Shown here piece after piece: positions 1 to 17,282 of a stretch of DNA of 27,827 nucleotides. The stretch spans positions 1 to 27,827 of IMG/VR virus record IMGVR_UViG_3300044301_002135. One strand, written 5' to 3'. Position 1 is the first letter of the stretch; each line of letters begins with the position of its first letter. A program made the translations under genes and the position numbers. The notes beneath the pieces were generated by a model. The model worked only from the letters and a program-made list of their open reading frames with translations, had not been told where the DNA came from and made no database searches. This DNA is from a virus.

Positions 1-184
1 CATCTGCATTTATCTTTATGGAGTGTGCTAACCTATTCTTATATAATTTGTCGAAAACTTTTTTGCCTTCTTCCTTTGAGTAAGGTTCCTCATTAAATAT
101 CTTTTTTTCTTTTGTATTTAAATAATGCCAAATTTCAAAGTTTTCTTCATAGCTACTCATGCTACTGTATTCAAATTCTTCCAT
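1..184 (-). CDS. Hypothetical protein, 3' end cut by window edge
   Basis: An open frame starts with ATG at 184 and runs 61 codons to the window edge without a stop. The peptide begins MEEFEYSSMSSYEENF and is acidic at first, then Lys-rich. An AGGGG Shine-Dalgarno sequence lies about 8 nt before the ATG, and a promoter-like element lies further upstream (217-245). I do not recognise the family. It follows the small terminase gene in the direction of transcription, so the large terminase or portal could lie beyond it, but that cannot be seen here. Confidence 0.6.
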   Translation of the reverse strand, partial: MEEFEYSSMSSYEENFEIWHYLNTKEKKIFNEEPYSKEEGKKVFDKLYKNRLAHSIKINAD

Positions 185-216
185 AGTATTTTCCCCTATT
201 ACTATAATATATAGTT

Positions 217-245
217 AGCATAGGTTAGAAGTAAAGGAAAGTAAA
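217..245 (-). promoter_or_regulatory. Candidate promoter upstream of the 1-184 gene
   Basis: Read on the minus strand, TTTACT (240-245) and TATGCT (217-222) are separated by exactly 17 nt. A second pair, TTTACT (230-235) and TATATT (206-211), is separated by 18 nt. The block TACTTTCCTTTAC (231-243) recurs almost unchanged at 11858-11871 and 17245-17257, again in front of genes. Predicted transcription start would leave a leader of about 26 nt containing the AGGGG Shine-Dalgarno site. No promoter assay is implied; the inference rests on recurrence and spacing. Confidence 0.45.
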
Positions 246-269
246 GTATAGGTTTAAGAATAAAGGCAA

Positions 270-734
270 CTACTGTTCTTCGTAGTCACCTTCTATAACT
301 TTACCCTCAGGCAAAATACCACCTGATTCATAGTAAAGTTCTTTCATCCTCGCGAGCACCTCATCTTTTGACATGGTGTCCACACGGTTCACGGTCAGTT
401 CGCTACGGTTCACATACAAACCTGCAGCTTTACCACGTGCCACTTCGGCAGTTACCGCAGCAGACCACGCACCATTACGCATAGCTCCATCACGAATCTC
501 TTTAAGGTCTACTAAATGGTTACCCAGCGTGAGTTCAGCTTTACTGGCAGCTTTAGTTTGCAGAGCATGAATGCGGTCTTGTACTTCTGGGTTCGATTTA
601 GAGGTGAGCATAGTACCAGCACGACCTGCATTTTTCTCACTGTACCCAGCTTGTTTTGCAGCATCTTTTTTCTTCATCCCCTTCGCCACATTTTGTGCAA
701 ACTTTTCTTGTTTGGGGGTTAATTTTTTACTCAA
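270..734 (-). CDS. terS: Terminase small subunit
   Basis: The small terminase subunit recognises packaging sites on phage DNA and hands them to the large ATPase/nuclease subunit. Residues about 5-55 match the Terminase_2-type pattern: LTPKQEKFAQ, then KKKDAAKQAGYSEK (helix-turn-helix), then a segment ending PEVQDRI. The later AAGLYVNR segment also fits. I chose the TTG at 734: it sits 6-8 nt after a GGAG and overlaps the upstream stop as TTGA, giving 154 aa. A longer frame from a TTG at 761 exists but overlaps the upstream gene by 31 nt and lacks a clear ribosome site. It closes a tightly coupled run with the two genes before it. The large subunit is not in the window. Confidence 0.85.
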   Translation of the reverse strand: MSKKLTPKQEKFAQNVAKGMKKKDAAKQAGYSEKNAGRAGTMLTSKSNPEVQDRIHALQTKAASKAELTLGNHLVDLKEIRDGAMRNGAWSAAVTAEVARGKAAGLYVNRSELTVNRVDTMSKDEVLARMKELYYESGGILPEGKVIEGDYEEQ

Positions 735-973
735 AACTCTCTCCAAACACGAAGCTTCCAATCACCGTCTTCTTCTATTTTACGAGTGACAAACTTTTTA
801 TCATTTCTTCTGGCGTAGTTACAAACAGCAACTCTTAAACGCTGAACGTCTTCAGAATCCCAGTCTTCTACAGTGAAGTATTGACCAACCTGCATTTTGT
901 GTAGGTTGTACTTATTGTTACGAGGGACTATCTCTGGAATAGGTATGCCCTCTTTAAAAGAGGATTGTTTCAT
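731..973 (-). CDS. Small conserved phage protein, 80 aa
   Basis: The protein opens with a Pro-rich IPIPEIVPR segment, followed by KYNLHKMQVGQYFTVE and ends RVWREF. The layout of a basic N-terminal tail, an M-VG-F strand, a helix with NYARR, and a final KFVTRK...RVWR strand is seen in small uncharacterised phage proteins; no function is assigned to them that I know of. Start and preceding stop overlap as TAATG, and its own stop overlaps the terminase start, so all three genes are probably translated in a coupled way. The many Lys/Arg residues could suit nucleic-acid binding, but this is a guess. Confidence 0.75.
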   Translation of the reverse strand: MKQSSFKEGIPIPEIVPRNNKYNLHKMQVGQYFTVEDWDSEDVQRLRVAVCNYARRNDKKFVTRKIEEDGDWKLRVWREF

Positions 974-1338
974 TACACAATTCTTAGTTTAGGTTTAACA
1001 TGTTCCTTAAAAGGAGATAAAATTCTTTCAAAAGAGTCCCAAAGTTGTAAATCACAGTCCACATACACTTGAATGTTGTCAGGAAACCAAATTCCAATTC
1101 TCATGTGTGGTGCACATTTTTCACCGTTTTTGTGCTCATGTATCATTATTTCTTTTGCAGCAAAAAATACTTCATCAAAGTTTTCGTAACCCATTGATTT
1201 TATCTGCTTTTTAACCTCTTTTTTAAGTGTTGGAAGATCTATTTGTCGATTGTAGTTGCGTTTTTCAGCTACTTCATTAATCAATTCAATATCTCTCCAT
1301 ATTACTTTTCTCATAGGAATATCGGCATGAGGTTGCAT
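973..1338 (-). CDS. Hypothetical protein, 121 aa
   Basis: I do not recognise this family. The protein is soluble-looking with no membrane segment: an N-terminal charged helical part (residues 10-60, many Lys/Glu), a central MIHEHKNGEKCAPHMRIG stretch with three His and one Cys, and a beta-rich end (WFPDNIQVYVDCDLQLW). The His/Cys group could bind metal, but the spacing does not match a motif I know. The start is well supported by AAGGAG 6 nt before the ATG. It heads the small run that ends in the terminase gene and follows a 74-nt gap containing two inverted repeats. Confidence 0.7.
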   Translation of the reverse strand: MQPHADIPMRKVIWRDIELINEVAEKRNYNRQIDLPTLKKEVKKQIKSMGYENFDEVFFAAKEIMIHEHKNGEKCAPHMRIGIWFPDNIQVYVDCDLQLWDSFERILSPFKEHVKPKLRIV

Positions 1339-1355
1339 AAATTTCTCCTTATTTA

Positions 1356-1400
1356 TTTATATAAATATAAACTCTACTTTACTTCTAGCTTGTAGTAAAG
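1356..1400. promoter_or_regulatory. Two adjacent inverted repeats, operator-like
   Basis: The gap 1339-1412 holds two back-to-back inverted repeats. The first is a perfect AT palindrome (TTTATAT-AA-ATATAAA, 1356-1371). The second is CTTTACT (1377-1383) and AGTAAAG (1394-1400) with a 10-nt spacer. The AGTAAAG half-site resembles elements in the gaps near 231-245, 11850-11871 and 17233-17259. On the minus strand the sequence lies directly ahead of the 973-1338 gene, so it may be an operator or promoter for the terminase run. Confidence 0.35.
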
Positions 1401-1412
1401 CACAATTGCATA

Positions 1413-1859
1413 TTATGTTAAAAACTGGGATTCTGTAATTCTTTTTCTTAGATTGGTTGAGGAAAACCCATGTTTTCTTGAGTTATAGTAAAGTGAACCG
1501 CCAGTAGTGCTACAAAGTTCTTTTCCAGTAAACTCTTTTTGTTTGTATTCCTCACCAACAATACGAATATCCCAACAAACAGTTCTTAGAATATCCAACA
1601 GTTCTTCTTCTGTGTTGTATAGAATAATTTCGTCTACATACCTACAACTTCTCAACTGAATCTGTCTTTCTACAATATTTTGCACAGGTTTATTTTTAGT
1701 TTTTGGTCTATCTATTGTAGGATCGCTCTGAAGACCTACAATTAAATAATCACAAATCGTTTTTGCTTCCTCTAACATAAACACATGACCAGCATGAAAC
1801 AAATCAAAAGAACCAAAAGTAATACCTACCCTACACTCTTCATAAGTTAACTCTTCCAC
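1413..1859 (-). CDS. Cytidylyltransferase-like nucleotidyltransferase (TagD/RfaE-C type)
   Basis: This is a member of the HxGH nucleotidyltransferase superfamily, which transfers a nucleotide from CTP or ATP to a phosphorylated substrate. The first strand TFGSFDLFHAGH (residues 14-25) carries HAGH. ERQIQL (64-69) and the terminal FSSTNLRKRI (132-141) match the second conserved signature (I/FSST..R). The length (148 aa) suits single-domain glycerol-3-phosphate cytidylyltransferase or heptose-phosphate adenylyltransferase relatives; the sequence cannot tell which substrate is used. It starts with GTG, overlapping the upstream TAG stop by one base (TAGTG) and placed 4 nt after GGAGG. Possible roles are making an activated sugar or polyol for surface or DNA decoration. 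Confidence 0.8.
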   Translation of the reverse strand: MEELTYEECRVGITFGSFDLFHAGHVFMLEEAKTICDYLIVGLQSDPTIDRPKTKNKPVQNIVERQIQLRSCRYVDEIILYNTEEELLDILRTVCWDIRIVGEEYKQKEFTGKELCSTTGGSLYYNSRKHGFSSTNLRKRITESQFLT

Positions 1860-2053
1860 TATTCCTCCATTTCGGACTGATCTTGCCGACCTGATAAAAT
1901 TTCTGAAATTTCGTCTTCAAGCCTGTTTATCTCTTTATTGAGCTTTACAACCGATTCTTCTGGAGCATGCATACGAATAATCATTCGTACATTGTCCAGT
2001 ATTTCTAAATATCCGTCGTAAGTTCTTATCGGTTTTTCTATTGGTTTATTCAT
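1859..2053 (-). CDS. Small charged protein, 64 aa
   Basis: This is a short helical protein with many Glu, Lys and Arg residues. It starts MNKPIEKPIRTYDG and continues as one long amphipathic, probably coiled-coil helix (SVVKLNKEINRLEDEISEIL). I do not recognise the family. The ATG at 2053 is preferred over an in-frame GTG at 2059 because GGAGG lies 5 nt before it; it overlaps the end of the upstream oxygenase by 8 nt. Its stop overlaps the GTG of the nucleotidyltransferase by one base. Confidence 0.65.
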   Translation of the reverse strand: MNKPIEKPIRTYDGYLEILDNVRMIIRMHAPEESVVKLNKEINRLEDEISEILSGRQDQSEMEE

Positions 2054-2747
2054 CTCCACCTCCGTATAACCAAAACACTAATAAATATCTATCTCCTTTA
2101 TCTTTGACTGGTAGCCCACGATGCATGTGCGTAAAACTAGGGAAAAATAAAGCATGACCATTGGGTAAAGGTTTTACCGTAGTGCGACCATGAAACTCAG
2201 TTCCTCCGCCTTTATAATTACCTGTGTTCAAAGGAACAACCATGCTTATATCTGCGGTTTGGTCGTGGTGCCACGCACCCTGCTTTTTATCTCTAACATT
2301 ATAGTTCGCAATCTGTATAGTTGCAGCAGCATGAGAATACCGTTGCCAAACTGACATAAAGATAGGGTTCATAACATTAAAAACCACCCCAAGCATTGAA
2401 TTAAATAACTCGGGAGATTTTTCATGTAAAACTATTTCTGGTATTTGCCTAAGTTCGTCTTCGTCTTCATTAGGACTAAAGTTAAAGTGCTGTTGCATGT
2501 TTTCTATTTCATCTAACATAGTGTCACAAAACTCTTGAGTAAACAAGGGCACAGAATAAATATCATGACCATGGTCAGTTACATATTCTTGTAACACATT
2601 TTTTACACTTTCCTGTCCATCACTCTCTTGGAATTTCTTTAAACTCGGCAATGCGTCTCTTGTTAGTTCAAGCGTAGTCTTATCAAGCATCCACTCAGCT
2701 TTTATAGTAAGTAAAAAGTTTTTGACTAAGTATGGAGGGGCTTGCAT
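2046..2747 (-). CDS. 2OG-Fe(II) oxygenase, prolyl-4-hydroxylase-like
   Basis: This is a non-heme iron dioxygenase that would use 2-oxoglutarate and O2 to hydroxylate a substrate. The C-terminal half has the double-stranded beta-helix residues: H160-x-D162 (in AWHHDQTAD), the distal His H209 in MHRGLPV, and R220 in GDRYLLVFW for the 2OG carboxylate. The GGGTEFHG...PNGHALFFP layout is that of the prolyl 4-hydroxylase alpha-type (P4Hc) group rather than AlkB or TET/JBP. The N-terminal 100 residues are helical and unrecognised. The substrate is unknown; phage protein, peptide or glycan are all possible. The start is backed by GGAG before the ATG. It heads a three-gene overlapping run with the small helical protein and the nucleotidyltransferase. 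Confidence 0.85.
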   Translation of the reverse strand: MQAPPYLVKNFLLTIKAEWMLDKTTLELTRDALPSLKKFQESDGQESVKNVLQEYVTDHGHDIYSVPLFTQEFCDTMLDEIENMQQHFNFSPNEDEDELRQIPEIVLHEKSPELFNSMLGVVFNVMNPIFMSVWQRYSHAAATIQIANYNVRDKKQGAWHHDQTADISMVVPLNTGNYKGGGTEFHGRTTVKPLPNGHALFFPSFTHMHRGLPVKDKGDRYLLVFWLYGGGDE

Positions 2748-2770
2748 TTACGCTCCACTAAATTCTTTTA

Positions 2771-2787
2771 GTTAGGCTATACCTAAC
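2771..2787. repeat. Short inverted repeat in the 2748-2824 gap
   Basis: GTTAGG and CCTAAC face each other across a 5-nt loop (CTATA on the plus strand). On the minus strand a T6 run lies just upstream of it (about 2801-2806). The gap separates the 221-aa gene from the oxygenase gene, so the element may mark a weak terminator or an operator. Confidence 0.3.
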
Positions 2788-2824
2788 CCTAAGTTTATAA
2801 AAAAGACGCTCTAAGGGGCTGCAT

Positions 2825-3490
2825 TTAGCCCACAATTTCTGCGTATTTGTTTCGTATATCATACTTGATATCTCCTAATTTTATTTCTGGGTTCTTAGCC
2901 AATATTGTACTAACTTTGCTCTTCCTGTAGAGTTTAAGTCTTGCAATATTTTTCTCTGACTTAGGTTGTTTACCTGTCGCACCTATCTTAGCTGTTTCTG
3001 ATAATATCATGCGTTTTCTTTTTGCTTGTTTGACCATGTCTGCTCCTAACGACCTTTTTGGTTTTTCCCTAACTGAAACGACAGCTTCAGTTTCCTCTTC
3101 TTTCCAAAGACCTTCTCTTATTAAGTGGTGTTTAGAAAAATCTTCGTATTTAGGTTTCTTTGCTTTAGTTTTAAAATGCTTCCAAAAAACAAGAGAAGCT
3201 TCTTTCTTGTCTTTAAATTTTTTATTTTTTCTAGTGTGTAGTTTCCAAATTTCTGCTGCTTTATTAGGGGTAAGCCATGGAGGAGGAGCGTATTTTTCTG
3301 GGTCTAGTAAGGAAGCCGAACCACCTTTTAGTTTTCCTACGTCTCTGTCTGTTGTTGAAACTATTCGTGTCCAGTCTATGCCTGCTGGAGTGTTGTTAAC
3401 AAAAACGATTGCTTCCCATGTGTTTGTATTTCCAAAGATTTTGTTTTCGTGACTTTTTTGTGCTTCTGTTTTCACCCTACGGTCTTCCAT
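2825..3490 (-). CDS. Hypothetical basic protein, 221 aa
   Basis: I do not recognise this protein. It is strongly basic, with dense Lys/Arg tracts (HTRKNKKFKDKKEAS, REKPKRS, KQAKRKRM), which suggests nucleic-acid binding. A W-rich middle section (NTWEAIVFV, PPPWLTPNKAAEIWKLH, LVFWKHFK) separates the basic stretches. The C-terminal part (LYRKSKVSTILAKNPEIKL, then DIKYDIRNKYAEIV) looks like a helical, possibly helix-turn-helix unit. The ATG follows GGAG. It stands alone between two gaps, after the DUF932 gene and a strong hairpin. Confidence 0.7.
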   Translation of the reverse strand: MEDRRVKTEAQKSHENKIFGNTNTWEAIVFVNNTPAGIDWTRIVSTTDRDVGKLKGGSASLLDPEKYAPPPWLTPNKAAEIWKLHTRKNKKFKDKKEASLVFWKHFKTKAKKPKYEDFSKHHLIREGLWKEEETEAVVSVREKPKRSLGADMVKQAKRKRMILSETAKIGATGKQPKSEKNIARLKLYRKSKVSTILAKNPEIKLGDIKYDIRNKYAEIVG

Positions 3491-3548
3491 TCTTTTTTCT
3501 CCAATCTATAAACCCTATCTTAAGAAAATTTTTAAGAAATGTAAAGGA

Positions 3549-3573
3549 ATGGTGTCATGAATAATGACACCAT
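3549..3573 (-). terminator. Perfect 10-bp hairpin after the DUF932 gene
   Basis: ATGGTGTCAT and ATGACACCAT form a perfect 10-bp stem; the minus-strand loop is TATTC. It starts about 13 nt after the DUF932 stop. It is followed on the minus strand by an AT-rich stretch without an uninterrupted T run, so it may be an mRNA 3'-end or stability hairpin rather than a classic intrinsic terminator. The same TATTC loop tops the hairpin at 15502-15522. Confidence 0.55.
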
Positions 3574-3585
3574 CCTCCTTACTGG

Positions 3586-4614
3586 TTATGCAGCTCTCGC
3601 ATAGTCGATGGCTTTATCCATCGCTTTCTGCTTCAATGAAGCACGACCACCGAACCACGCATTATGTAGCGAGGCGTCTCGGTCATGACCCCATTTGTGG
3701 TCAACTACAAAAGTAACAGCATTCATCGCTCCCCACCAAGTACCCTTAGAGGATTTAAGGTGAGCTCCTGGCTGTTCTTCAATAGCTTGATGTACCATAC
3801 TAGGTATGCGTTTAAACTCATCAACCATCGATTGACGAGTAGCTATCATCCTAGTATCACTCATCTTTTCTATTTCTTCCTGAGCCACTAATAATTCAGG
3901 TTGAAATAAGTCAGCTATATAGTTAACGACTGAATTTTTATCAAATTGCTTAGAGCTCAAAAACTCTGCAGCTTCTTGAAATTCATCCATTCTGTCTCCA
4001 GCCAACCCTAGTGCTCGTTCAGCAGCCACAAATACTTCGCTATCTATAGCACGTACATGAGGCATTTTAAAACCAGCAGTAGCCTTATCAGACAAAGCCA
4101 TTGTCAGTGTGTTGTTACACACTACCCTTATAGGTGTAAATCTAATTTCATTGGATTTCCCCCACTTATGAGACACACTTACTAATAAGTAACCTAAAAT
4201 TCGGTCATCACCAGGAAGTGTAAAGTCTTTACTGACGTTAGCTAGTCCCCAAACATTTTCTCCTCCTTTAAGAGAACCAGCAGTTTCCATTTTCATGTGT
4301 CCTGCGTCGGTAAACTTCTTAAAAAATTCAAAAGCGTGTGCGTTTTGACTAGGTACAAACCTTGGACCACACGGACCAAAAGTTTTGTTATCACTATCAC
4401 GGACTAACACAGAGTAACCTTCTACACCGATAAGGTCGTCGGAAGTGTTTACGTCTGGGTCAGCGTGAGTAAATAAATGCCTTTTACTAACTGTCCAATC
4501 AAGTCCAGCAGCAACAAGCATTTCTTGTGGTGTTAGGTTGTCTTCAACTTTAACACCTAGCCCATGCCAAGGTACTTCCCCAGCGTAAGCCATTGTTTCT
4601 ACAGCATCTGCCAT
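3586..4614 (-). CDS. DUF932 phage/plasmid-like protein
   Basis: The N-terminus MADAVETMAYAGEVPWHGLG carries the signature of the DUF932 family (phage/plasmid-like protein, TIGR03299 type), which spans most of the 342 residues. Further family-like segments are WTVSKRHLF, GYSVLVRDSDN and the KWGKSNEIRFTPIRVVCNNT stretch. DUF932 proteins are frequent in phages and plasmids and their biochemical role is not established. No membrane segment or signal peptide is seen. The start follows AAGGAG at normal spacing, and an 87-nt AT-rich gap with promoter-like repeats precedes it. It is probably transcribed alone or as the first gene of the left segment, with a strong hairpin just after its stop. Confidence 0.85.
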   Translation of the reverse strand: MADAVETMAYAGEVPWHGLGVKVEDNLTPQEMLVAAGLDWTVSKRHLFTHADPDVNTSDDLIGVEGYSVLVRDSDNKTFGPCGPRFVPSQNAHAFEFFKKFTDAGHMKMETAGSLKGGENVWGLANVSKDFTLPGDDRILGYLLVSVSHKWGKSNEIRFTPIRVVCNNTLTMALSDKATAGFKMPHVRAIDSEVFVAAERALGLAGDRMDEFQEAAEFLSSKQFDKNSVVNYIADLFQPELLVAQEEIEKMSDTRMIATRQSMVDEFKRIPSMVHQAIEEQPGAHLKSSKGTWWGAMNAVTFVVDHKWGHDRDASLHNAWFGGRASLKQKAMDKAIDYARAA

Positions 4615-4680
4615 ATCTTTCTCCTTTCTAAAAATGTTTTCGTATAATTACTAAACATACCCCCTATGATATATATACTA

Positions 4681-4712
4681 AGTATAGAGTATAGGATAAT
4701 CTTAAAGATTAT
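4681..4712. promoter_or_regulatory. AGTATAGGATAAT motif and 17-bp palindrome
   Basis: ATAATCTT-A-AAGATTAT (4696-4712) is a perfect palindrome that overlaps the end of the resolvase-like gene. Next to it is AGTATAGGATAAT (4688-4700), close to AGTATAGGATTAT at 11868-11880 and AGTATAGGTTTA at 245-256. The 4615-4701 gap precedes DUF932. No clear -35/-10 pair is seen, so promoter, operator or weak terminator are all open. Confidence 0.35.
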
Positions 4713-5118
4713 AGGCAAGTTCATAGTCTAACCAGTGTTCAAATGTAAGTACGACAGTCACTGAATTGTCTGGAGCTTCGTTGTGTCTGTTGTAGTTACG
4801 CTCACTTACAGACCATAAAGGAACACAAACTCTAATTGGCTGATGATTGTATTTCCAGATCAGAACAGGTACTGTGTCTCCACAAGACGCACAGACTTGT
4901 GTCCACCAATCTTCTTTATACCAATTACCAGAGGCGTAGCGTTTACACTCAATTGTGTGATTAGGTATGTTCAAGTCTCCTAAGTCCTTTTCTTGATATT
5001 GTTCTAGATTTCTTTTAACCTTAAAATCAACACCTTTTTCTTCAAAGAACGAGTTTAAACGTCTGGCGACATCTCTTTCAAAAGACGCTCCTTTATTTCT
5101 TGAGTTTATTTTACCCAT
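4702..5118 (-). CDS. Holliday-junction-resolvase-like PD-(D/E)XK nuclease
   Basis: The protein has the layout of small PD-(D/E)XK nucleases of the Hjc-like type: an N-terminal basic helix with SRNKGASFERDVARRL (E14), then DLGDLNI (D48), then HTIECKRY, where E57 and K59 form the ExK pair. Family members cut branched or recombination DNA as dimers, so a role in resolving replication or packaging intermediates is likely. Two Cys (CASC, residues 76-79) follow the core and are not part of the known active site. The length of 138 aa is typical. It overlaps the HTH gene by 8 nt and ends the polymerase operon. Confidence 0.8.
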   Translation of the reverse strand: MGKINSRNKGASFERDVARRLNSFFEEKGVDFKVKRNLEQYQEKDLGDLNIPNHTIECKRYASGNWYKEDWWTQVCASCGDTVPVLIWKYNHQPIRVCVPLWSVSERNYNRHNEAPDNSVTVVLTFEHWLDYELAYNL

Positions 5119-5404
5119 TTTTTATTAACCTTATGTTTTTTAATTTCATCCAATCTCTCATGAGTGCGTTCAATGTTTTTGGGTCAGCTTCTTTAAATTC
5201 TTTCCTATAGCTTTTGTATGTATCGTTATAGAGTTTTAGACCCTTATAATAATTACCATCGCCAAGTTTACAATACCTTATTATTTGCCAAACTCTTTGT
5301 TTAGAAACGTCGTATTTAGTTCCTATTTCTTCAAGCGTTGTGTAACTGTTTGTGTATGTCATGTAGATATTAAAGTATAGTTTTTTGAGTTCAGTTTTTC
5401 TCAT
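5111..5404 (-). CDS. Sigma-70 region-4-like helix-turn-helix protein
   Basis: Residues 22-43 (TTLEEIGTKYDVSKQRVWQI) closely follow the -35-recognition helix-turn-helix of sigma-70 region 4.2, with the TLEEIG...V...RV.QI pattern. The rest is basic and helical (YNDTYKSYRKEFKE, then DWMKLKNIRLIKNG). There is no region 2, so it is not a full sigma factor. It could bind DNA as a small regulator, or touch host RNA polymerase. The ATG overlaps the polymerase end by 14 nt; AGGAG lies about 10 nt upstream. The resolvase-like gene begins before it ends. Confidence 0.7.
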   Translation of the reverse strand: MRKTELKKLYFNIYMTYTNSYTTLEEIGTKYDVSKQRVWQIIRYCKLGDGNYYKGLKLYNDTYKSYRKEFKEADPKTLNALMRDWMKLKNIRLIKNG

Positions 5405-7289
5405 TTAAGAAGTACTCCTTATAGTCTATAACCTCTCCCCAACTTTTACCTATTTCTGCGTCAACTTTATTGGGTACTTTAAGTTCAACACAGTCTCTCA
5501 TTATTTCTATTATCTTTTCACACTCCTCTTTATCCTTTATAGAGACATTAAGTTCGTCATGTACTTGGGTATGAGCCACTATCCCCTCTTTATGCAGGTC
5601 TAACATAGCTTGCTTAGTCATATCTGCTGCAGATCCTTGTATAAGTCTATTCATTGCTTTATATGTATAGGCTCTTTTTAATCTACCGCCATACTCGTTC
5701 ATAGCTTTTTCTAAAGGTAGGGGAGTTTCTCTACGGTCAAAAGGTTCGTATAGGTTAAACCTACACTTACGCCCTAGAATAGTTTTAACAAAACCTCTGT
5801 TTGCTCCCATTCTAGAAGCAGAGTCTCGTAGACCACGAATGAAGGGCACTCTTTGATGGTATTGATCAAACAATAACTCTGCTTCTTCTGCACTGATTCC
5901 CAATTGATTGGTTAGTTTGTCCTTACCCATTCCATAACTAAGTCCTAAGTTAATTATCTTTGCTTCTTTACGGCTTATGTTAGCCATGTCTGCTACTATC
6001 TGGTGGAAATCAGCTGAATCATCTTCGTATTCTAGTGCTGCTTCTTCTGCACCGTCTTGATGAGTAAGCACGGAATAGTGTACAGTTAATCTGGGTTCTT
6101 GCTGAGAGTAATCAAAACAACCCCAATGACGACCTTCTTCTGGTATGAACAAAGAACGAATCAGGTTGCCAATCATAGGATCTCTAGCTGGTACTTGTTG
6201 CAGATTAGGGTTACTGCAACTAAACCTACCTGTGACAGTTCCTCCGCTATCTGATCTTAAGGGATGCAGTTCTCCATGTATTCTACCGTCAACCAAATGT
6301 TCTAGTATCATTTTATCTATAAATGTAGTACGAGCTTTATTAAACTTTCTAGCTTTAGCTATAGCCATCGGTAGTTTATGGTCATGGCTCTCTAACCAGT
6401 TAGCCACAAAACTTGGTGCTTTTGTTTTAGGAGTGGTTGGGTATTCTACACCAGCTCTATCAAAAACCTGAGACAATGATTGTGCTGCCCACAGGTCAGG
6501 TTCAATACCATACCAATTCTTTATTTCTTTTATAATCTTTTTCTCTTCAGTTAATAGTTGTTTTTTAACCTGTTGTGCTTTATCGGTATCTATCAACACA
6601 CCTTTTATCCTAGTATCTATAAGCACAGGTAATAAAGAACTCTCTAAGTTATAAATATCAGTTATATCTTCATCTTTTAACCCTGTTTTTAAAATCTGCC
6701 AAAGTCTGTAGGTAAGGTCAGCGTCTTGTTCAGCGTAAGTACCTACATATTCAGGCGGTAGTTTGTACATTTCAGACTTAGGATCAACGCTAAAAACTTG
6801 TGCTGCTTCTTTTAACATAGACTCGTCTTTTATTTCGTTAAGGTACTGTTTGCCTAAACTGTTTAATGAGTAGCTATACTCATTTTCATTCAATAGAGGA
6901 GCAGCCATCATGGTATCGTGTATCTTTCCATTAATTGTATAACCTTCTGCCTTTAACCAACCTACGTCATACTGAGCATTATGAAATATTTTATCGTTCG
7001 ATGCGTCTAGTTGTTTTTGTAACCACCTACGAACCACGTTCTTGTCTAAATTAGCACCACTGTGGTGAGCTATAGGGAAATAGCCTTTCCAACCTTTAGT
7101 AGCTACAGCTATGCCTATGATATATCCTCTATCTTTAAACGCCCACCCTGGACCATGAGTCTTGAGCCACGGATCACAGGTTTCTAGATCAATCGCTATC
7201 TCTTTTTGACCTGTTAGGTCTGGAAAAGAAGGAGGTGGAGCCCACTCCACCTCAGGTAACATAAACTCCATTACACCTTGTTGTGTCAT
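5391..7289 (-). CDS. polA: Family A DNA polymerase (DNA polymerase I) with 3'-5' exonuclease
   Basis: This is the replicative polymerase of the phage. It has 632 aa from the ATG at 7289, which overlaps the upstream stop as ATGA after GAGG. A longer frame from 7334 would overlap the nuclease gene by 49 nt. The exonuclease domain shows D34-x-E36 (AIDLETCD), HNAQYD (N104, D108) and YAEQD (Y185, D189). The polymerase domain shows motif A with D393 (CFDYSQQEPR), motif B with R440, K444, L448 and Y452 (RKEAKIINLGLSYG), and motif C HDE (577-579). There is no 5'-3' exonuclease domain. The residue equal to E. coli Phe762 is Leu (L448), a variant known from marine phage polymerases and linked to altered fidelity and speed. 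Confidence 0.97.
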   Translation of the reverse strand: MTQQGVMEFMLPEVEWAPPPSFPDLTGQKEIAIDLETCDPWLKTHGPGWAFKDRGYIIGIAVATKGWKGYFPIAHHSGANLDKNVVRRWLQKQLDASNDKIFHNAQYDVGWLKAEGYTINGKIHDTMMAAPLLNENEYSYSLNSLGKQYLNEIKDESMLKEAAQVFSVDPKSEMYKLPPEYVGTYAEQDADLTYRLWQILKTGLKDEDITDIYNLESSLLPVLIDTRIKGVLIDTDKAQQVKKQLLTEEKKIIKEIKNWYGIEPDLWAAQSLSQVFDRAGVEYPTTPKTKAPSFVANWLESHDHKLPMAIAKARKFNKARTTFIDKMILEHLVDGRIHGELHPLRSDSGGTVTGRFSCSNPNLQQVPARDPMIGNLIRSLFIPEEGRHWGCFDYSQQEPRLTVHYSVLTHQDGAEEAALEYEDDSADFHQIVADMANISRKEAKIINLGLSYGMGKDKLTNQLGISAEEAELLFDQYHQRVPFIRGLRDSASRMGANRGFVKTILGRKCRFNLYEPFDRRETPLPLEKAMNEYGGRLKRAYTYKAMNRLIQGSAADMTKQAMLDLHKEGIVAHTQVHDELNVSIKDKEECEKIIEIMRDCVELKVPNKVDAEIGKSWGEVIDYKEYFLNEKN

Positions 7290-7966
7290 ACTTCTGCCTC
7301 TCTGCACATGTTTTGTTTTCCAAAATAACACCACTTACACTTAAACTTAGAAGGATTAGCAGGGAACTCCTCCGCAGTGGTCATGGCTATTGCCCTTAGA
7401 TTAAGTCTTTCTTGTTTTACTTTAATGCTTTCTGGTGTATATATGTAGCGGTCAATCTTACCATGATCTAAGTACCACATTTCTGTAGTAATACTTTCTA
7501 GTTCAGGGTAACGACTCAACGCTATAGCTCCATATAATTCACACTGTTCTCTGTGAACTTCTTGGTTACCATCATATCTTCCTGTTTTAAAATCAATTAC
7601 ACGTGCTTCCTTACTAATACCTTCCTCGTATACAAAAGCATCTACTTTAGCTCTACCCCAAGTATCGTCTTCAAACCAACCTGTTTTTTCCCAGTTTTTA
7701 TCTATAGCCCAATCACTTTCACAAATGACGTGTCCGTGTAAATAAAGATCTTTAAGAACTAAAAAAGCATCTTCAAAATCTTGAATTTGTGCAGGCATTT
7801 CTTCTAACTGACCTCTTATAAACTCTTCACACATTTTATGAATGTCTTTACCTCTGTCCATTGCTGGACTTCCAGGTTCTTTTATCTTTTTAATAAACTT
7901 AAATTCTGCTTGTTTGGGACATTTTTCAAAACAGCTTAGTCTGCTATATGACCATTGTTTAATCAT
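7286..7966 (-). CDS. RecB/Cas4-like PD-(D/E)XK exonuclease with Fe-S cysteines
   Basis: A single-domain RecB-family nuclease. The opening WSYSRLSCFEKCP is the family's N-terminal signature. The core residues are H43 (RGKDIH), D109 (GRAKVDAF), D125-x-K127 (VIDFKTG) and the QxxxY motif at 141-145 (REQCELYG). Cysteines C12, C210, C213 and C221 have the spacing of the [4Fe-4S] site in Cas4/AddB-type nucleases (C16 is an alternative first ligand). Such proteins resect DNA ends. AAGGAG overlaps the stop of the preceding gene, so translation is coupled, and the polymerase follows by ATGA overlap. A role in recombination-dependent replication is likely; there is no CRISPR context. Confidence 0.88.
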   Translation of the reverse strand: MIKQWSYSRLSCFEKCPKQAEFKFIKKIKEPGSPAMDRGKDIHKMCEEFIRGQLEEMPAQIQDFEDAFLVLKDLYLHGHVICESDWAIDKNWEKTGWFEDDTWGRAKVDAFVYEEGISKEARVIDFKTGRYDGNQEVHREQCELYGAIALSRYPELESITTEMWYLDHGKIDRYIYTPESIKVKQERLNLRAIAMTTAEEFPANPSKFKCKWCYFGKQNMCREAEV

Positions 7967-7977
7967 GTGGTATCTCC

Positions 7978-8988
7978 TTATTTTATTCTTCTATTAAACC
8001 ACTCCCAACAGGCTTTACGCCAATCACTAGCGACACACTTTTGAATCTCAATCATGGCTTCTTCTGTTTTTCCTTCTTTATGTAGCCACCATGAATCTTG
8101 TATAGGTACGGCTACCTCGTTAAAGAAAGAATCTTTAAACTCCATTTCTTCAAATGGTACTCTGTCTAAAAACCCTAGTAAATCTAGATCCCATGTTTGT
8201 ATTCCTGTGTTGATCATTGGGTATGGTTGTACTTCCCCTATTTTATATGGATTTGAGTCAATAAGGGTTCTTTGTGTATAGAAGTCTATAGCGTCTCTCG
8301 CCACCAATTTTTCTAATAATTCTTCAAAAACTTCTGCGTAGGCGTGATAATTATCACTCACTTGATAATAACGTCCTACAGGAACTCCTATGGCACTAGC
8401 CATGTATTCCTGTAGCATGGACATGTGTACAACATTTGCACCATAAGCCCCCCAAATAATATCATTAGACCTGTTACTAACAGTCATTTGTAACCTGCCC
8501 TTTAAGTCTATCTTGAAATAGATACAAGTATTACAAGGAACGTCAACCCCAACCCTGTTTAAATCTTCAATAGGATCCCACATCTGTAAAACAGAGCGTC
8601 TGTCCTCTGGGTTTTTCTTTAGTCTTTCTATTATCACAGACAATTGATCATACATAAAGAAAGAACGCCATCTCCAACCATAAGCTCCGTGTAAAGTCTC
8701 ACCGTCATCGCTGTAGTTTTTCATACCTTTGTTATAGTATTGTACAAACTTGAGATCATTGCGTCCTTCCAACATCCACAAAGCCTCCATAAAATGAAAG
8801 AAAGGATTGGCGTCTCTTTCCTCCCAAAACAAAACTCTTTCTTTTGGTTTATGGTATACGGTTGTTACTGGGGTTTGTGCCTGATAAACCTCTCCGTTTC
8901 TACTTTCAGATTTTTCTCCGTCGATGTGGAGAATATCCACTCCACGTAGTAGAGCATCGTGTACATTTCTTACCTCAATTACTTGCAT
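7978..8988 (-). CDS. Thymidylate-synthase-like enzyme (possible dUMP/dCMP hydroxymethylase)
   Basis: This is a 336-aa ThyA-fold protein. It has NPFFHFMEALWMLEG, HGAYGWRWR, the phosphate-binding R130-R131, catalytic C152 in VPCNTC, R173-S174-x-D176 and DNYHAY (H215, Y217). It differs from ThyA in ways that may change the reaction. The His after the catalytic Cys is Asn (N153). The Asn that recognises dUMP is shifted by one position (GAYGAN, N185). The folate-binding C-terminal tail is replaced by an unrelated segment of about 70 aa. Such proteins make either dTMP or 5-hydroxymethyl-dNMP. The neighbours favour the second reading: dUTPase, glycosyltransferase and a hypermodification protein are all co-directional. 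AAGGGG precedes the ATG, which overlaps the glycosyltransferase by 14 nt. Confidence 0.8.
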   Translation of the reverse strand: MQVIEVRNVHDALLRGVDILHIDGEKSESRNGEVYQAQTPVTTVYHKPKERVLFWEERDANPFFHFMEALWMLEGRNDLKFVQYYNKGMKNYSDDGETLHGAYGWRWRSFFMYDQLSVIIERLKKNPEDRRSVLQMWDPIEDLNRVGVDVPCNTCIYFKIDLKGRLQMTVSNRSNDIIWGAYGANVVHMSMLQEYMASAIGVPVGRYYQVSDNYHAYAEVFEELLEKLVARDAIDFYTQRTLIDSNPYKIGEVQPYPMINTGIQTWDLDLLGFLDRVPFEEMEFKDSFFNEVAVPIQDSWWLHKEGKTEEAMIEIQKCVASDWRKACWEWFNRRIK

Positions 8989-9760
8989 TTTCTACCCCTT
9001 CTTTATACGCTTTTTTCCAACCTATGATTACGTCTTTACGAGGCAAACCATTCCAAGCTGTTTTAGTTTGTTTCTCCACCACCTTTACACAAGTTGGGTG
9101 TAGGTCATGAAGTTTTTGAGCACCTTCGTTGTGTACGTCAATCGTTCTCCACTCACTACAACCACCGTCAGCGTTAGACGATTTTTGACCCTGAGCGTAG
9201 TAATAACTAACCTTACTAGCTTTACCTCTTCTTAATAGTTGTAAAGCTATGTCAAAGTCCTCCATCACCCTAGTTCTGCCCCATTCAACGTCACTAGGAA
9301 AGGCGTCTAAGTTATACCCTAAAACTCTCATATACCGAGTATTTTCTACAGATAAGTCTTCAACACGGTTATTACCCTCTCTAGCACTTATCCCCACATG
9401 AGCGTAACCTTGATCCATCCACTCATCCAGTAAACCAAATAAAGCGGGATATTCGTTTGATTCTAAATAACGTAAGTGCCAATCAGTTGGGCTTTTACGA
9501 ATATAGAACCGTAAGTCATCGTCTAGCATGACTATTCTTGGATCATCTGTATTTTCTACGATGTATTTACGTTTTGGACCAATACCTATGCAGTCTTTTG
9601 GAACTATTAGTCTTGGGGTGTTTGCATACCGAAAGTATTTGTCAGCTTCGTCTGGGTCTATCACCAAAGTAACAGAACCATCGGTCTGCATTTCTTTAGG
9701 AAACCATTTTAAAGTTTCCTGATTATGAGGTCTTCCTCTTGTTGGTATATATATTTTCAT
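8975..9760 (-). CDS. TAGT-type (TET-associated) DNA glycosyltransferase
   Basis: This is a GT-A fold glycosyltransferase. The start MKIYIPTRGR is the family's first strand, followed by a nucleotide-sugar and metal-binding D80-D81-D82 (MLDDDLRFYIR) and a later VMEDFDIAL with E167-D168 and D170. The 261-aa layout, with IYIPTRGR, a VIDPDEA strand, LIVP, GPKRKYIVEN and DDDL, is that of the TET-associated glycosyltransferases predicted to add sugar to 5-hydroxymethylpyrimidine in phage DNA. No TET/JBP oxygenase is present in the window. A host-glycan substrate is an alternative, but the position between dUTPase (ATGA overlap) and the TS-like gene (14-nt overlap) supports DNA modification. Confidence 0.75.
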   Translation of the reverse strand: MKIYIPTRGRPHNQETLKWFPKEMQTDGSVTLVIDPDEADKYFRYANTPRLIVPKDCIGIGPKRKYIVENTDDPRIVMLDDDLRFYIRKSPTDWHLRYLESNEYPALFGLLDEWMDQGYAHVGISAREGNNRVEDLSVENTRYMRVLGYNLDAFPSDVEWGRTRVMEDFDIALQLLRRGKASKVSYYYAQGQKSSNADGGCSEWRTIDVHNEGAQKLHDLHPTCVKVVEKQTKTAWNGLPRKDVIIGWKKAYKEGVENASN

Positions 9761-10215
9761 TTTGCACCTGTGCTCCCGAACCCACCTATGCTACGCATGG
9801 TGATACTACTAAAATCTAAAACAGGTTGCCACAGCACCTGAACCACAGGCACTACTACTAACTGAGCTATCCTTTGAGTTTTTTCAATAAGGAAATTATC
9901 TTCTCCGTTATTAGTTAGCGGAACCATTAATTCACCTTGATAGTCTGCGTCAATAATCCCTAATGTATTAGTTAAGTGTATCTTTTTAATACCTAAACTA
10001 GAACGAGGTACAAGCAAACCACAAAGCTCAAAGTCACCTAAGTACATAGCTAACCCTGTGCGATATGTATGAGACTCTCCTGGAGCTAACTCATAATCCT
10101 CTGCTGACCGTAAGTCTAAACCAGCTGAGCCTACAGTAGCATACTCAGGGAGTATGTGTGGGTCAGTGTGTTCAAATAAACTTGAGTCTATTATTTTAAT
10201 CTCTACTTTCTTCAT
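9757..10215 (-). CDS. dut: dUTP diphosphatase (dUTPase)
   Basis: Trimeric dUTPase hydrolyses dUTP to dUMP and PPi, keeping uracil out of DNA and supplying dUMP for TS-type enzymes. All five motifs are present in order: GSAGLDLRS (29-37), PRSSLGIK (70-77), GIIDADYQGEL (86-96, catalytic Asp), QRIAQLVVVP (114-123) and RSIGGFGSTG (141-150, the C-terminal lid). The length of 152 aa is normal. Start and stop overlap both neighbours as ATGA. The pairing with the TS-like gene suggests dUMP is fed into synthesis of a modified pyrimidine, though plain dTMP supply would also make sense. Confidence 0.97.
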   Translation of the reverse strand: MKKVEIKIIDSSLFEHTDPHILPEYATVGSAGLDLRSAEDYELAPGESHTYRTGLAMYLGDFELCGLLVPRSSLGIKKIHLTNTLGIIDADYQGELMVPLTNNGEDNFLIEKTQRIAQLVVVPVVQVLWQPVLDFSSITMRSIGGFGSTGAK

Positions 10216-10535
10216 ATAATTTCCTCTCTTTTTTCTAAATCTTTCAGGTAAGCTTTAACACATATATGAGACTCCACTAATAATAAATATCTTCTTAAGT
10301 CTTGTATGTCGTCTAATATTCCTGTCTCACTTGGATCATTTTCTATTGTTTTAAAAATATCGTATCCGTCTTTTTTCACTTGATTTTCTATTCTGTCCCA
10401 CTTACGTGCTAACATCATAAAAGCACCAACACCTCCACGGCTACGCCAACTATCTCCGTAACTTTTTTCTGATTCTTTAAGACTATCTACGTCTTGATCC
10501 GCTAGTTGTTGAATATGGTTAAAATTTGCTGGCAT
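10212..10535 (-). CDS. DUF1599/Nmad1-like nucleotide-modification-associated protein
   Basis: This is a 107-aa all-helical protein. ESEKSYGDSWRSRGG (21-35), then FMMLARKWDRIENQV, then DDIQDLRRYLLL (75-86) resemble the DUF1599 family, also named nucleotide-modification-associated domain 1, whose fold is MazG-like in character (YGDxW near the N-terminus, DxxDLxxY near the end). The catalytic activity is not established; a nucleotide pyrophosphohydrolase is one proposal consistent with the acidic helices. The ATG at 10535 is chosen because AAGGAG lies 6 nt upstream; an earlier start at 10580 would overlap the preceding gene by 44 nt. Its stop overlaps the dUTPase start. Confidence 0.6.
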   Translation of the reverse strand: MPANFNHIQQLADQDVDSLKESEKSYGDSWRSRGGVGAFMMLARKWDRIENQVKKDGYDIFKTIENDPSETGILDDIQDLRRYLLLVESHICVKAYLKDLEKREEII

Positions 10536-10536
10536 A

Positions 10537-11382
10537 TTATTCTCCTTTATATTTAAACTTTGCTCTAGGTCTGCCTTCACCTAAACGCACTCTTTCATAT
10601 TTATCGTATTCACATAGGCAGTGTTCTATTTCTCTCATCTCTAAATCAGGTACAGATGGATCTAGTGTATTAGCAACCTCTCCTGAAATATCCAGTAAAT
10701 CTTTCATCTCTTCATTTAACTGATCAGTTTTTATACTTTGTTCAAGAGGTCTGCCATGTATTCTATTTAACCCACGTTTTGCTCCTGGACCAGCATTAGC
10801 CCACGTCATAATATCTTCGGCTTTATCTAGATATTTTGTGTGTCTTAAGTCGGTAACTACCTCATAAGCCATAAATCCACTAAATCCAGCATAAGGTAGG
10901 TATTCTGCCCATGTGTTTTGTAAACTATTGTGGTGTATAGGTGGTGGGTTTTCATACAATGGGGTAAGTATTTTGTCTATGGTTTGTTCTACTTTAGTTC
11001 CCCCTAAAGTGCCTGTTAACATGTACGCCCCTGTGTAAACTTTTTCTTTCCTATTCATTCTACCTTGCATAATAGCTTTAATACGTTCAGGGTTCCAATG
11101 TTCAGGGAACCCCAGTTCTTCTAAAGTCTCTGGCCAATTTATTTGCCTAGCCATAGCCATAGCAAAAGGTAGATTAGGGTGATCGGCGTAAGGCTCTTTC
11201 CAGTTTTCTCGTATCCATACAGTAACTTTATCTAACTCACGAAACACATTACAGAAACTATAGGTCTGTAGTATTTCATCATCAGTCCACGGAAAAGGAT
11301 CTTCTAGGTGACGCTTTATAAAAATTTTATGTCTTTCATTTATGTAATAAAAGAAACCATCTACGCTACTTGTTGAAACCAT
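10537..11382 (-). CDS. DNA base hypermodification protein, HMUDK_hel / aGPT-PPlase type
   Basis: This 281-aa helical protein matches the phage family named for the 5-hmdU DNA kinase helical domain and alpha-glutamyl/putrescinyl-thymine pyrophosphorylase group. Landmarks, in order, are YYINERHKIF (12-21), PWTDDEILQTY, FCNVFRELDK (43-52), NWPETLEEL (82-90), VYTGAYML, GFMAYEVVTDLRHTK (169-183), WANAGPGAKRGL (194-205) and the terminal LEMREIEHCLCEYDKYER and RLGEGRPR. Family members act on 5-hydroxymethyl-dU in DNA, in the kinase or amine-transfer steps of thymine hypermodification. No P-loop kinase domain is attached here. The start is supported by GGAGG; it overlaps the HCDKH gene by 22 nt. Confidence 0.75.
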   Translation of the reverse strand: MVSTSSVDGFFYYINERHKIFIKRHLEDPFPWTDDEILQTYSFCNVFRELDKVTVWIRENWKEPYADHPNLPFAMAMARQINWPETLEELGFPEHWNPERIKAIMQGRMNRKEKVYTGAYMLTGTLGGTKVEQTIDKILTPLYENPPPIHHNSLQNTWAEYLPYAGFSGFMAYEVVTDLRHTKYLDKAEDIMTWANAGPGAKRGLNRIHGRPLEQSIKTDQLNEEMKDLLDISGEVANTLDPSVPDLEMREIEHCLCEYDKYERVRLGEGRPRAKFKYKGE

Positions 11383-11834
11383 TGCGGTACCTCCCGTTTA
11401 GTCCATTTTGCAAAACTCTTCTTTTCTCCTATGTAGTAACTACGATAGGCAGATATAGGGTCATTAATGATTTTGTACTCATCAGGCATACATTGTGGAT
11501 GTTGTTGTAAGCCTTTACTTTCTATAAGAAGTGGAGATAATTCATTAACGACCTCAATTGATTTATGGTTAGCTGACCGACCGTATCGCCAGCAAAACTC
11601 TTCGTTTAAGTATATGGCTAGTTCTTTTAACCACACCCAATTATCAAGGCTTTTTCCTGCCCATAGAGTACAAGGATGGTTTGCGTGCACTGGTTTATAA
11701 GGAGCACTTTGACCGTTAGTCCACAAAGTAGTACAAAGCATCTGAGCTGATTCAAGTATCATTTTAGATACGTGTTTGTCGCAATGCGTTTGAGCACATA
11801 ATTGAGGGGTTTTGTCTAGTTTAAAAATATTCAT
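11361..11834 (-). CDS. HCDKH-motif phage protein, 157 aa
   Basis: This matches an uncharacterised family common in marine and T4-like phages, starting MNIF.LD and carrying HCDKHVSKMILE (17-28). Other conserved features are H50 and H53 in VHANHPCTLW, CWRYGRSANH, HPQCMPDEYK (112-121) and the final WTKREVPQWF. The cluster of invariant-looking His, Cys and Asp residues suggests a metal or catalytic site, but no activity is known to me. It is the first gene of the hypermodification run. The start codon has no Shine-Dalgarno sequence, and a predicted promoter places the transcript start only a few bases upstream, so this gene may be translated from a near-leaderless message. Confidence 0.7.
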   Translation of the reverse strand: MNIFKLDKTPQLCAQTHCDKHVSKMILESAQMLCTTLWTNGQSAPYKPVHANHPCTLWAGKSLDNWVWLKELAIYLNEEFCWRYGRSANHKSIEVVNELSPLLIESKGLQQHPQCMPDEYKIINDPISAYRSYYIGEKKSFAKWTKREVPQWFQQVA

Positions 11835-11843
11835 ACCGTTTTT

Positions 11844-11873
11844 ATTTTACTTTACTTGTAAAGGGAAAGTATA
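11844..11873 (-). promoter_or_regulatory. Candidate promoter of the hypermodification operon
   Basis: On the minus strand, TATACT (11868-11873) and TAAAAT (11844-11849) are 18 nt apart, with the shared block TACTTTCCCTTTAC (11858-11871). A perfect inverted repeat, CTTTAC-TT-GTAAAG (11850-11863), lies between the two boxes, where an operator would act. The predicted start point, about 7 nt after the -10, is only 2-3 nt from the ATG at 11834. Confidence 0.5.
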
Positions 11874-11895
11874 GGATTATTGCTAAAAATTTTAT

Positions 11896-12480
11896 TCACA
11901 ATCCAGTCCTAAACGTCAAATTAACTCGTTTACCCACATTTTCTATGGTCGGTATTGAATGAGTACTGGTCATTTGAGAGTGCCCATCAAATATGTAAAC
12001 GTCACCATGCTCGATGATGTGGTCTGTTTGGTCCACAGAGTAAGCTAAACCACGTGTGTTTATTTCACTGGTGTTGCTTTCCTCTTTTATGTCCTCACCA
12101 AATTGACGCCACTGAAGTATCCTAGCAGCACCAAAAGAAACACCTACTACTAAATCATCTAAAGTAGGAACTGTGTCAGAGTGGTGAGGTATGGTAGAAT
12201 CACCGTCTTCGTATAAACCACACAAACAAAAATTAAACCGTACAATCTTTTCAAGTTCTTTGTAGACTAATAGTTCGGTTGCCATTTTTATTAACCTCAT
12301 GTTTTGTGTCCACGGTTCAGGTTCATACGTTTTGCCTGCATAATCAAAGGTTGCTGTACCGTAACCTTTAGTGGGTCTTCCTTGTACTTCTCTACCGTTA
12401 AATACTCTGATAGTTGGTTCATCCCAATCGGTTATCTTCGCGTCGTATTCTTTTAAGGCACCTTTTATAATTTTCATCAT
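11896..12480 (-). CDS. AlkB-like 2OG-Fe(II) dioxygenase
   Basis: The 194-aa protein has the AlkB double-stranded beta-helix core: FNFCLCGLYEDG, then H100-x-D102 in IPHHSDTV, distal H174 in STHSIP, and the RVNLTFR signature (185-191) that separates AlkB proteins from other 2OG oxygenases. AlkB enzymes remove alkyl groups from DNA or RNA bases by oxidation; in phages repair of alkylated DNA is the simplest role. It follows the UvrD-like helicase by an ATGA overlap and lies just before the hypermodification operon, so oxidation of a base in that pathway is conceivable. Its start is ATGATG; AAGGAG is 11 nt upstream. Confidence 0.85.
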   Translation of the reverse strand: MMKIIKGALKEYDAKITDWDEPTIRVFNGREVQGRPTKGYGTATFDYAGKTYEPEPWTQNMRLIKMATELLVYKELEKIVRFNFCLCGLYEDGDSTIPHHSDTVPTLDDLVVGVSFGAARILQWRQFGEDIKEESNTSEINTRGLAYSVDQTDHIIEHGDVYIFDGHSQMTSTHSIPTIENVGKRVNLTFRTGL

Positions 12481-15484: not shown

Positions 15485-15501
15485 CGATCATACTCCAATG
15501 A

Positions 15502-15522: not shown

Positions 15523-15536
15523 AAACTATATTACAA

Positions 15537-17190: not shown

Positions 17191-17230
17191 AACTCTTGTC
17201 TCTTATTTCTTAATTCTTAGTTATCTTTCG

Positions 17231-17259: not shown

Positions 17260-17282
17260 TAAAAAGTTTAGCATTAAAATGA

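Follow-up and report, generated by a model that had tools for sequence, protein, structure and literature searches.

A sigma region 4.2-like protein encoded beside the DNA polymerase gene of marine phages and its possible link to TWTACTTTY promoters

A small open reading frame in the replication operon of a viral DNA record raised the question of whether a single helix-turn-helix (HTH) protein could direct the RNA polymerase of the host to the promoters of a phage. The window analysed here is the whole of this virus record, 27,827 bases in length. A first-pass annotation had described, on this stretch, a protein carrying only the HTH by which sigma-70 recognizes the -35 box, and had proposed that, no phage RNA polymerase being visible, it may redirect host RNA polymerase to phage promoters, possibly those with TWTACT-type elements. 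When the first 24,000 bases of the window were compared by megablast with 50,697 named phage records, from which very near records were possibly omitted, no match was obtained. The family A DNA polymerase (PolA) of the window is 49-53% identical to that of 023Pt_psg01, DSL-LC04 and the Pelagibacter phages HTVC023P and HTVC027P.

The HTH gene (5111-5404, minus strand) starts with ATG and encodes 97 amino acids. Its start overlaps the 3' end of the PolA gene (5391-7334, minus strand; PF00476, 203 bits), and its end overlaps the start of a gene for a PDDEXK_15/RusA-like nuclease (4702-5118, minus strand; PF24608, 46.3 bits; phrog_244, 65.4 bits). Relatives of the protein were found in viral contigs, 21 with the single sequence and at 31 loci with an alignment as query. 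At all 31 loci PDDEXK_15 is the next gene with a homologue in the window, so that the HTH gene is more than a chance open reading frame. PolA precedes it wherever upstream DNA is present, with a cytidylyltransferase-like gene intervening at some loci. A scan that started from PolA gave 41 loci, among which the HTH gene was identified in 36/36 whose PolA match reaches its end, while the other five break off within PolA. The open reading frame can thus be regarded as a real, conserved gene, as had been assumed. In the window, the cytidylyltransferase-like gene is located at 1413-1859, far from PolA; its relatives lie between PolA and the HTH gene in L033, L035, L040 and others, which marks the junction as a site of gene movement.

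This position suggests a first alternative, namely that the protein is an accessory of replication or recombination, as a partner of PolA or PDDEXK_15 or as an origin binder, and that the sigma factor of the host reads the TWTACT elements alone. It is favoured by the overlap of the HTH gene with both neighbours and by its conserved place among replication genes. However, more distant members of the family exist (39-50% identity), some of them without an adjoining PDDEXK_15 gene; among 16 such loci (L402-L417) PDDEXK_15 was found in L402 only, so that the pair is separable. In addition, the recognition helix is invariant, as is expected of a protein with one fixed DNA target. We regard the accessory role as a rather unlikely explanation; the part of it that concerns the host sigma factor is considered with the promoters below.

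In the recognition helix (SKQRVWQIIR in the window, residues 34-43; 5276-5305, minus strand), K35, Q36, R37, W39, Q40, I41 and R43 are invariant in 37/37 distinct proteins. The first 50 alignment columns are more conserved than the remainder, with a mean of 0.78 compared to 0.61. Some members of this set had been fetched by HTH patterns; those obtained by way of PolA and of g11361, with which the operon stretch leading to the HTH gene begins, had not. On the DNA level, the helix is encoded by 47 different sequences across 65 contexts, a count that demonstrates synonymous change only, since the contexts were picked by the helix pattern.

The family assignment of the protein was approached by several profile comparisons. 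The window protein scores 22.3 bits with Sigma70_r4 (PF04545), below the cut-off of 24.1, and 23.1 bits with UPF0122/YlxM (PF04297), above the cut-off of 22.7; with Mor (PF08765) it reaches 15.0 of the 24.9 bits required, and with the NCBIfam YlxM model (NF045758) 22.6 bits, far below the equivalog cut-off of 80. The HTH gene gives the sole Sigma70_r4 match at E <= 1 in every record of a set of 11, made up of the window and ten relatives, and the cut-off is passed in one of them (G014, 24.5 bits). All 12 members of an alignment of close relatives match Sigma70_r4 at E <= 0.1. Among 10 diverse relatives, eight match Sigma70_r4 at E <= 0.01, one passing its cut-off (L105, 24.3 bits), and four match UPF0122 at the same threshold, only L122 passing (26.5 bits). 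A profile of 12 close relatives retrieved a YlxM-type protein first from the PDB sequences (1xsv, E 0.051; sigma70, E 0.074), and with a profile of 13 diverse relatives the top match was region 4 of E. coli sigma70 (2p7v_B, E 0.0031), ahead of 1xsv (E 0.039).

An AlphaFold2 model built on a 12-sequence alignment (mean pLDDT 89.4) contains helices at residues 3-19, 24-31, 35-47, 52-69 and 75-88. One long helix thus precedes the HTH and two follow it, so that the description of the protein as an HTH and nothing else was nearly right. The first 50 or so residues of the model match DeoR (Z 5.8; 2.5 Å over 52 residues), SorC (Z 5.3; 1.8 Å over 48), HetR (Z 5.0; 3.3 Å over 54), a serine recombinase (Z 4.5; 1.9 Å over 45) and sigmaA region 4 (Z 4.5; 1ku7, 5.8 Å over 61; 3n97, 2.6 Å over 46). 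A different HTH class by fold had been named as a refutation of the sigma assignment; in this check, similar scores were obtained for serine recombinase, Lrp, DeoR, Mor and sigma region 4. Foldseek gave no match at E <= 0.001 against PDB and BFVD, and MotA is absent among the 50 fold matches listed, an absence which excludes nothing. As modelled, this part of the protein is a generic HTH by fold. By sequence the protein is sigma region 4.2-like, and it is not filed as a sigma factor. The earlier assignment to the -35-binding HTH of sigma-70 is therefore supported on the level of the sequence, although the single sequence gives a weak signal and many HTH classes are compatible with the fold. 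The gene product is predicted to be a small DNA-binding protein with an HTH of the sigma-70 region 4.2 kind.

The fold matches are also in agreement with a second alternative, in which a small regulator of an ordinary type, whether repressor or activator (Mor-, YlxM- or DeoR-like), acts on an operator such as CTTTACWWGTAAAG and not on a -35 box. In the VIA-align comparison DeoR, SorC and HetR (5.8, 5.3 and 5.0) rank above sigma region 4 at 4.5, and the window protein passes the UPF0122 cut-off. A suitable operator is present in the promoter region of g11361, as described below.

The statement that no phage RNA polymerase is visible was confirmed and extended. PF00940 was not detected in any of the 11 records, in which the ten relatives have lengths of 43-65 kb, while the T7 control gave 360.6 bits, and PF00562 was likewise detected in none of them. 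Sigma70_r2 (PF04542) was found in 0/11 records at E <= 0.001, and its controls were detected in 10 of 14 genomes. The records may be fragments, a completeness of 90% or more being assigned to none of the 11. Ten small clade-wide proteins of G014 were scanned and gave no DNA-binding family at a credible score. Two small G014 proteins of 80 and 79 residues (L200:6095-6337, plus strand, and L200:6567-6806, minus strand) are present in all five other large records compared; they are without family matches and adjoin gaps with promoter-like sites in both directions.

Among the four phages with related PolA, none of 63 annotated proteins that were translated matches the HTH profile better than E 0.12, and the G014 HTH protein has no relative at E <= 1e-3 in the open reading frames of the stretches of these phages that were examined. 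One of these 63 is an 85-residue DSL-LC04 protein annotated as 'RNA polymerase sigma-G factor' (OR003939.1, WJZ48105.1; L050:4228-4485), whose gene adjoins that of the primase. It was rejected as a possible relative, as the HTH profile does not find it, and no sigma motif was seen in it.

In the window, two minus-strand elements had been pointed out, and both have the form of a promoter. The one upstream of g11361 (11844-11873) reads TATACT-N18-TAAAAT and contains the palindrome CTTTACAAGTAAAG. The one upstream of g16876 and the replication genes (17231-17259) reads TTTACT-N17-TAAAAT, and TTTACY-N17-TAAAAT is kept in 5/5 distinct upstream regions shown, that of the window included. Further promoter-like sites on the same strand are located upstream of g973 (1371-1399, TTTACT-N17-TAGAGT) and g2825 (3517-3545, TTTACA-N17-TAAGAT). 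A weaker candidate precedes the DUF932 gene (4666-4693, TATACT-N16-TATCAT) and is not kept in all relatives, and overlapping TATACT/TTTACT candidates with TAnnnT 17-18 bp on are present in the gap at the low end of the window (206-250). Counted as a bare hexamer, TWTACT occurs in the window no more often than by chance (59 compared to 62.9 expected), and a generic sigma70 scan of positions 1-19500 remained at chance level (53 compared to 54.3). In contrast, the spaced promoter pair was found in 6/9 intergenic gaps compared to 0.26 in shuffles, and in a repeat in 5/8 compared to 0.23, the number of gaps differing because open-ended reading frames were treated differently. Genes were called by a length-greedy script. 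The spaced pattern was chosen after the window had been seen, and the heptamer and neutral-pattern tests given below are less biased. The proposed TWTACT elements thus stand as sigma70-spaced pairs in use across the clade, but not as a bare hexamer.

In the second alternative, the operator would lie in the promoter of the operon, that of g11361. TATACTT-N3-CTTTAC-WW-GTAAAG-TA was kept in 19/19 distinct g11361 upstream regions, all from records with the HTH gene (for the record of L111, the HTH gene is on L008). The 14-bp palindrome CTTTACWWGTAAAG, which separates the -35 box from the -10 box, recurs in all 19 regions and may be an operator; its CTTTAC-N2-GTAAAG core in every such region speaks for this second alternative. 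However, among the promoters read, the full palindrome occurs in that of g11361 only, whereas TWTACTT is present across records, and in the more distant loci L403, L406 and L409 the left half of the palindrome is not conserved while TTTACTTTT and GTAAAG are. A role as an ordinary repressor or activator appears improbable to us.

Across the clade, TTTACTT was the top heptamer upstream of genes when six records of 53-65 kb with the HTH gene were pooled, being present in 35/148 gaps compared to an expectation of 6.0 in dinucleotide shuffles. Taken singly, all six records have it among the heptamers listed, one of them at the first rank; the lists for the short window and for G001 do not contain it. 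In four pooled relatives without the HTH gene, the top heptamers were GGAGAAA, AGGAGAA and GTTTGAC. TAnnnT follows TTTACTT at exactly 17 bp in 17/37 sites, other distances having 0-8. TATACTT sites have no 17-bp peak (1/11), sites near a gene start such as that of g11361 dropping out. Sites with T at -33 were counted 22 times in sense and 2 times in antisense orientation in 121 single-direction gaps. Taken together, heptamers, spacing and direction showed that the clade has sigma70-spaced promoters with a TWTACTTTY-like -35 element. No title among the matches listed in an open-access literature search names the HTH protein family or marine-phage TTTACTT promoters, and no word beginning with 'sigma' or 'promoter' is contained in the available part of the main texts on HTVC023P-type phages (PMC9599517) and on the HTVC027P transcriptome (PMC12753301).

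Reading of these promoters by the host sigma factor alone, as implied by the accessory role of the HTH protein, is in agreement with the finding that TTTACT equals TTGACA at 4/6 positions and has the normal 17-bp spacing. Against it stands the base at -33. When T[AT]NACN-N17-TAnnnT was used as a neutral pattern, 52 loci bearing the HTH gene (235 distinct gaps) gave T 39, G 3, A 3 and C 0, compared to 3.2, 1.6, 3.3 and 1.5 in shuffles. The best 80 of 586 HTVC023P-type loci without the HTH gene (367 gaps) gave T 10, G 18, A 4 and C 1, compared to 7.5, 3.0, 7.4 and 2.8, so that the relatives with 49-53% identical PolA favour G and not T. Some loci with the HTH gene overlap, and identical gaps and sites were counted once; L098, L101-L104, L111 and L125 were left out because their DNA stops short of the HTH gene. 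L291, one of the 80 loci, has an open reading frame with E 0.0075 for the HTH profile, which was not counted as a member. In whole records, T 35 and G 3 were counted in 169 gaps with the HTH gene, compared to T 2 and G 4 in 82 gaps without it. The Fisher value obtained (4e-7) is overstated, since orthologous gaps are not independent. As the HTH gene, the clade and a hypermodification cassette nearly always occur together in these comparisons, the difference at -33 may also mark phylogeny or host. As a weak control, distant homologues of g11361 from loci that lack the HTH gene were considered; the TWTAC pattern was found in 0/44 of their distinct upstream regions, taken from the best 80 of 585 loci, with most regions in other gene contexts and a few stretches cut short.

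The difference at -33 was then related to the residues of the recognition helix. In 37/37 proteins K35, Q36 and W39 align with the positions which we take to be R584, E585 and R588 of sigma70, so that these base-reading residues are not kept in the HTH protein; with K, Q and W in their places, a sigma70-like mode of reading is assumed for it. According to the accessible text of PMC2613000, E585 of sigma70 contacts -33 and R584 contacts -31, and specificity at -33 is relaxed by the exchange E585Q as well as by R588H. The phage groups would therefore differ in just that base which is read by the differing residue. This correspondence between protein residue and -33 base is a prediction from the alignment. 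The link of the HTH protein to TWTACT is circumstantial, consisting of co-occurrence and of Gln at the E585 position.

The window additionally contains a cassette for thymidine hypermodification (7978-11382). It comprises genes for ThyA-like (7978-8988), TAGT glycosyltransferase (8975-9760) and HMUDK/aG-PT-PPlase-like (10537-11382) proteins, identified by family and profile matches, and for a dUTPase-like protein (9757-10215), identified by sequence. Thymines in the phage DNA may consequently be modified. This is the basis of a third alternative, in which TTTACTT promoters belong to T-hypermodified DNA and are read by another factor, or by host sigma meeting modified T, while the HTH gene merely co-occurs. 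The cassette (ThyA-like, HMUDK, TAGT) was also found in those HTH-bearing loci whose region was covered. Moreover, YuA-type phages share homologues of it, ThyA and HMUDK in PAE1 and Sonora and HMUDK in YuA and CN1, and have TTTACTTYTT-type promoter sites: six in YuA, seven in Bordetella CN1 and three each in PAE1 and Sonora, with a TATACT or TAGACT box 16-18 bp on. The GC-rich records of YuA (W07; L342-L344) and Bordetella CN1 (W08; L345-L347) contain TTTACTTCTTCGG-type promoters ending in CACTATACT.

A homologue of the HTH protein was not detected in YuA-type phages, either by profile (PAE1, Sonora and also PaMx11) or by phmmer (YuA, CN1, PAE1 and Sonora). The element thus does not by itself need the HTH protein, and the proposal that the latter redirects host RNA polymerase is supported in part only: the HTH, the lack of a detected RNA polymerase and the promoters are in its favour, the YuA-type promoters are not. 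The YuA promoters may be described in the original YuA paper. A YuA-type two-HTH protein (PAE1 orf61, Sonora 51) was rejected as a homologue, the HTH profile giving a score at noise; the Sonora protein has 15.9 bits with Sigma70_r4, below the cut-off, and a similar protein is present in PaMx11, which is without the TTTACTT element.

The distribution of the element speaks against the third alternative. Among nine phages with an HMUDK homologue that were examined beyond the clade, a TTTACTT promoter was identified in four (YuA, CN1, PAE1 and Sonora) and not found in five (PaMx11, Ab18, Epa5, AIIMS and Rhizobium I65), the scan covering 50 kb each of PAE1, Sonora and PaMx11, 60 of 64 kb of Epa5 and the whole of the others. 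Hypermodification alone is, therefore, not sufficient for the element to be present. The element was also missing in a tenth phage, which had been selected among the PolA matches. Furthermore, 0/88 open reading frames of G014 are common to the YuA type yet absent from the element-less phages, so that the YuA case looks convergent or dependent on another reader.

A phage-like contig (L362/L420) from a metagenome-assembled genome (MAG) labelled Marinimicrobia carries AEP, UvrD, Cas4-like, g10212, PolA and the HTH gene, and contains no ThyA, HMUDK or TAGT between UvrD and PolA. The UvrD query was detected in this MAG and HMUDK was not, a result which shows little alone. This contig, which is partly masked, suggests that the HTH gene is not tied to the hypermodification cassette. 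One TTTACT-N17-TAGACT site was found on it and was not counted, and masked runs lie near the expected promoter gap. The MAG label is a possible hint to the host. Altogether, the hypermodification explanation seems to us quite unlikely.

The reading that we prefer, tentatively and with somewhat under even confidence, is that the HTH protein, as predicted from its sequence, serves host RNA polymerase as an auxiliary reader of the -35 box. It would bind TWTACTTTY at the place of the -35 box, 17 bp from the -10 box, and would help or replace region 4 of the host sigma factor at the phage promoter, while region 2 of the host sigma factor would still be used on the -10 box. By this contact, host RNA polymerase would be steered to phage promoters and activated there. 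Since the HTH gene overlaps PolA in an operon that starts with a TWTACT promoter, feedback of the protein on this operon would be possible, as would the activation of phage genes at about the time when replication begins.

A wider version, which we consider doubtful, would be that a free-standing viral region 4.2 had its target moved from TTGAC to TTTAC by the exchange of Glu to Gln at the residue reading -33 and that promoters followed genome-wide. The result would be a hybrid holoenzyme of host core, host sigma region 2 and viral region 4, specific for phage DNA and possibly suited to hypermodified thymines.

If the HTH protein reads the -35 element in trans, this would be a minimal sigma appropriation, in which one viral domain stands for one sigma domain. 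It would also be a natural re-tuning of a well-studied contact, that of sigma70 E585 with the -33 base, and would provide a promoter rule for a marine phage group seen here in metagenomes only, by which the transcription units of these phages become predictable from sequence. Should the HTH protein turn out to have another role, the TWTACTTTY promoters of the clade, together with the similar promoters of YuA-type phages, would still call for a reader yet to be named.

Compared to known systems, the nearest by working principle is the sigma appropriation of T4, and the nearest by sequence are sigma70 region 4 and YlxM. With domain 4 of E. coli sigma70 (PF04545), the first hit of the PDB search with the diverse profile, the HTH protein has the motif LEE[IV]G...V[ST]..R[VI].QI in common. 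In contrast to it, the HTH protein is free-standing, scores below the Pfam cut-off and has K, Q and W at the positions of R584, E585 and R588. Sigma region 4 is a four-helix domain that includes region 4.1 and binds the beta flap, and it has two helices ahead of the HTH, whereas one is present in the model. YlxM/UPF0122 is likewise a small protein with a sigma region-4-like HTH, whose Pfam cut-off is passed by the window protein; however, ylxM adjoins an SRP gene, while the HTH gene is part of a phage replication operon and its product stays far below the NCBIfam YlxM cut-off.

In Bacillus subtilis SigO/RsoA, sigma regions are divided between separate proteins; there, a region 2-like partner is encoded, whereas none was found in the 11 phage records. 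Mor and C of phage Mu (PF08765) are activators with an HTH that act together with the RNA polymerase of the host, and a likeness in fold was identified for both (Mor, 1rr7, Z 4.5, 2.2 Å over 47 residues; C, 9l0x_I, Z 4.7, 4.6 Å over 53). Mor has a further domain, and the HTH protein does not reach its Pfam cut-off. The YuA type (Rabinowitzvirinae) has TTTACTT at the -35 place alike, although an HTH homologue was not detected there.

For T4 MotA/AsiA, the literature describes a MotA box in place of the -35 element (PMC6755090; PMC11598898), next to a host -10 element that is retained (PMC6755090); MotA itself has two domains and binds to sigma region 4 after the latter has been remodelled (PMC6755090). 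The MotA fold combines an activation domain and a double-wing domain. The predicted promoters described here have the same layout by sequence, with TTTACTT at the -35 place and TAnnnT at 17 bp. If our preferred reading is right, the HTH protein would work in a manner similar to MotA, here with one 97-residue protein containing a single HTH.
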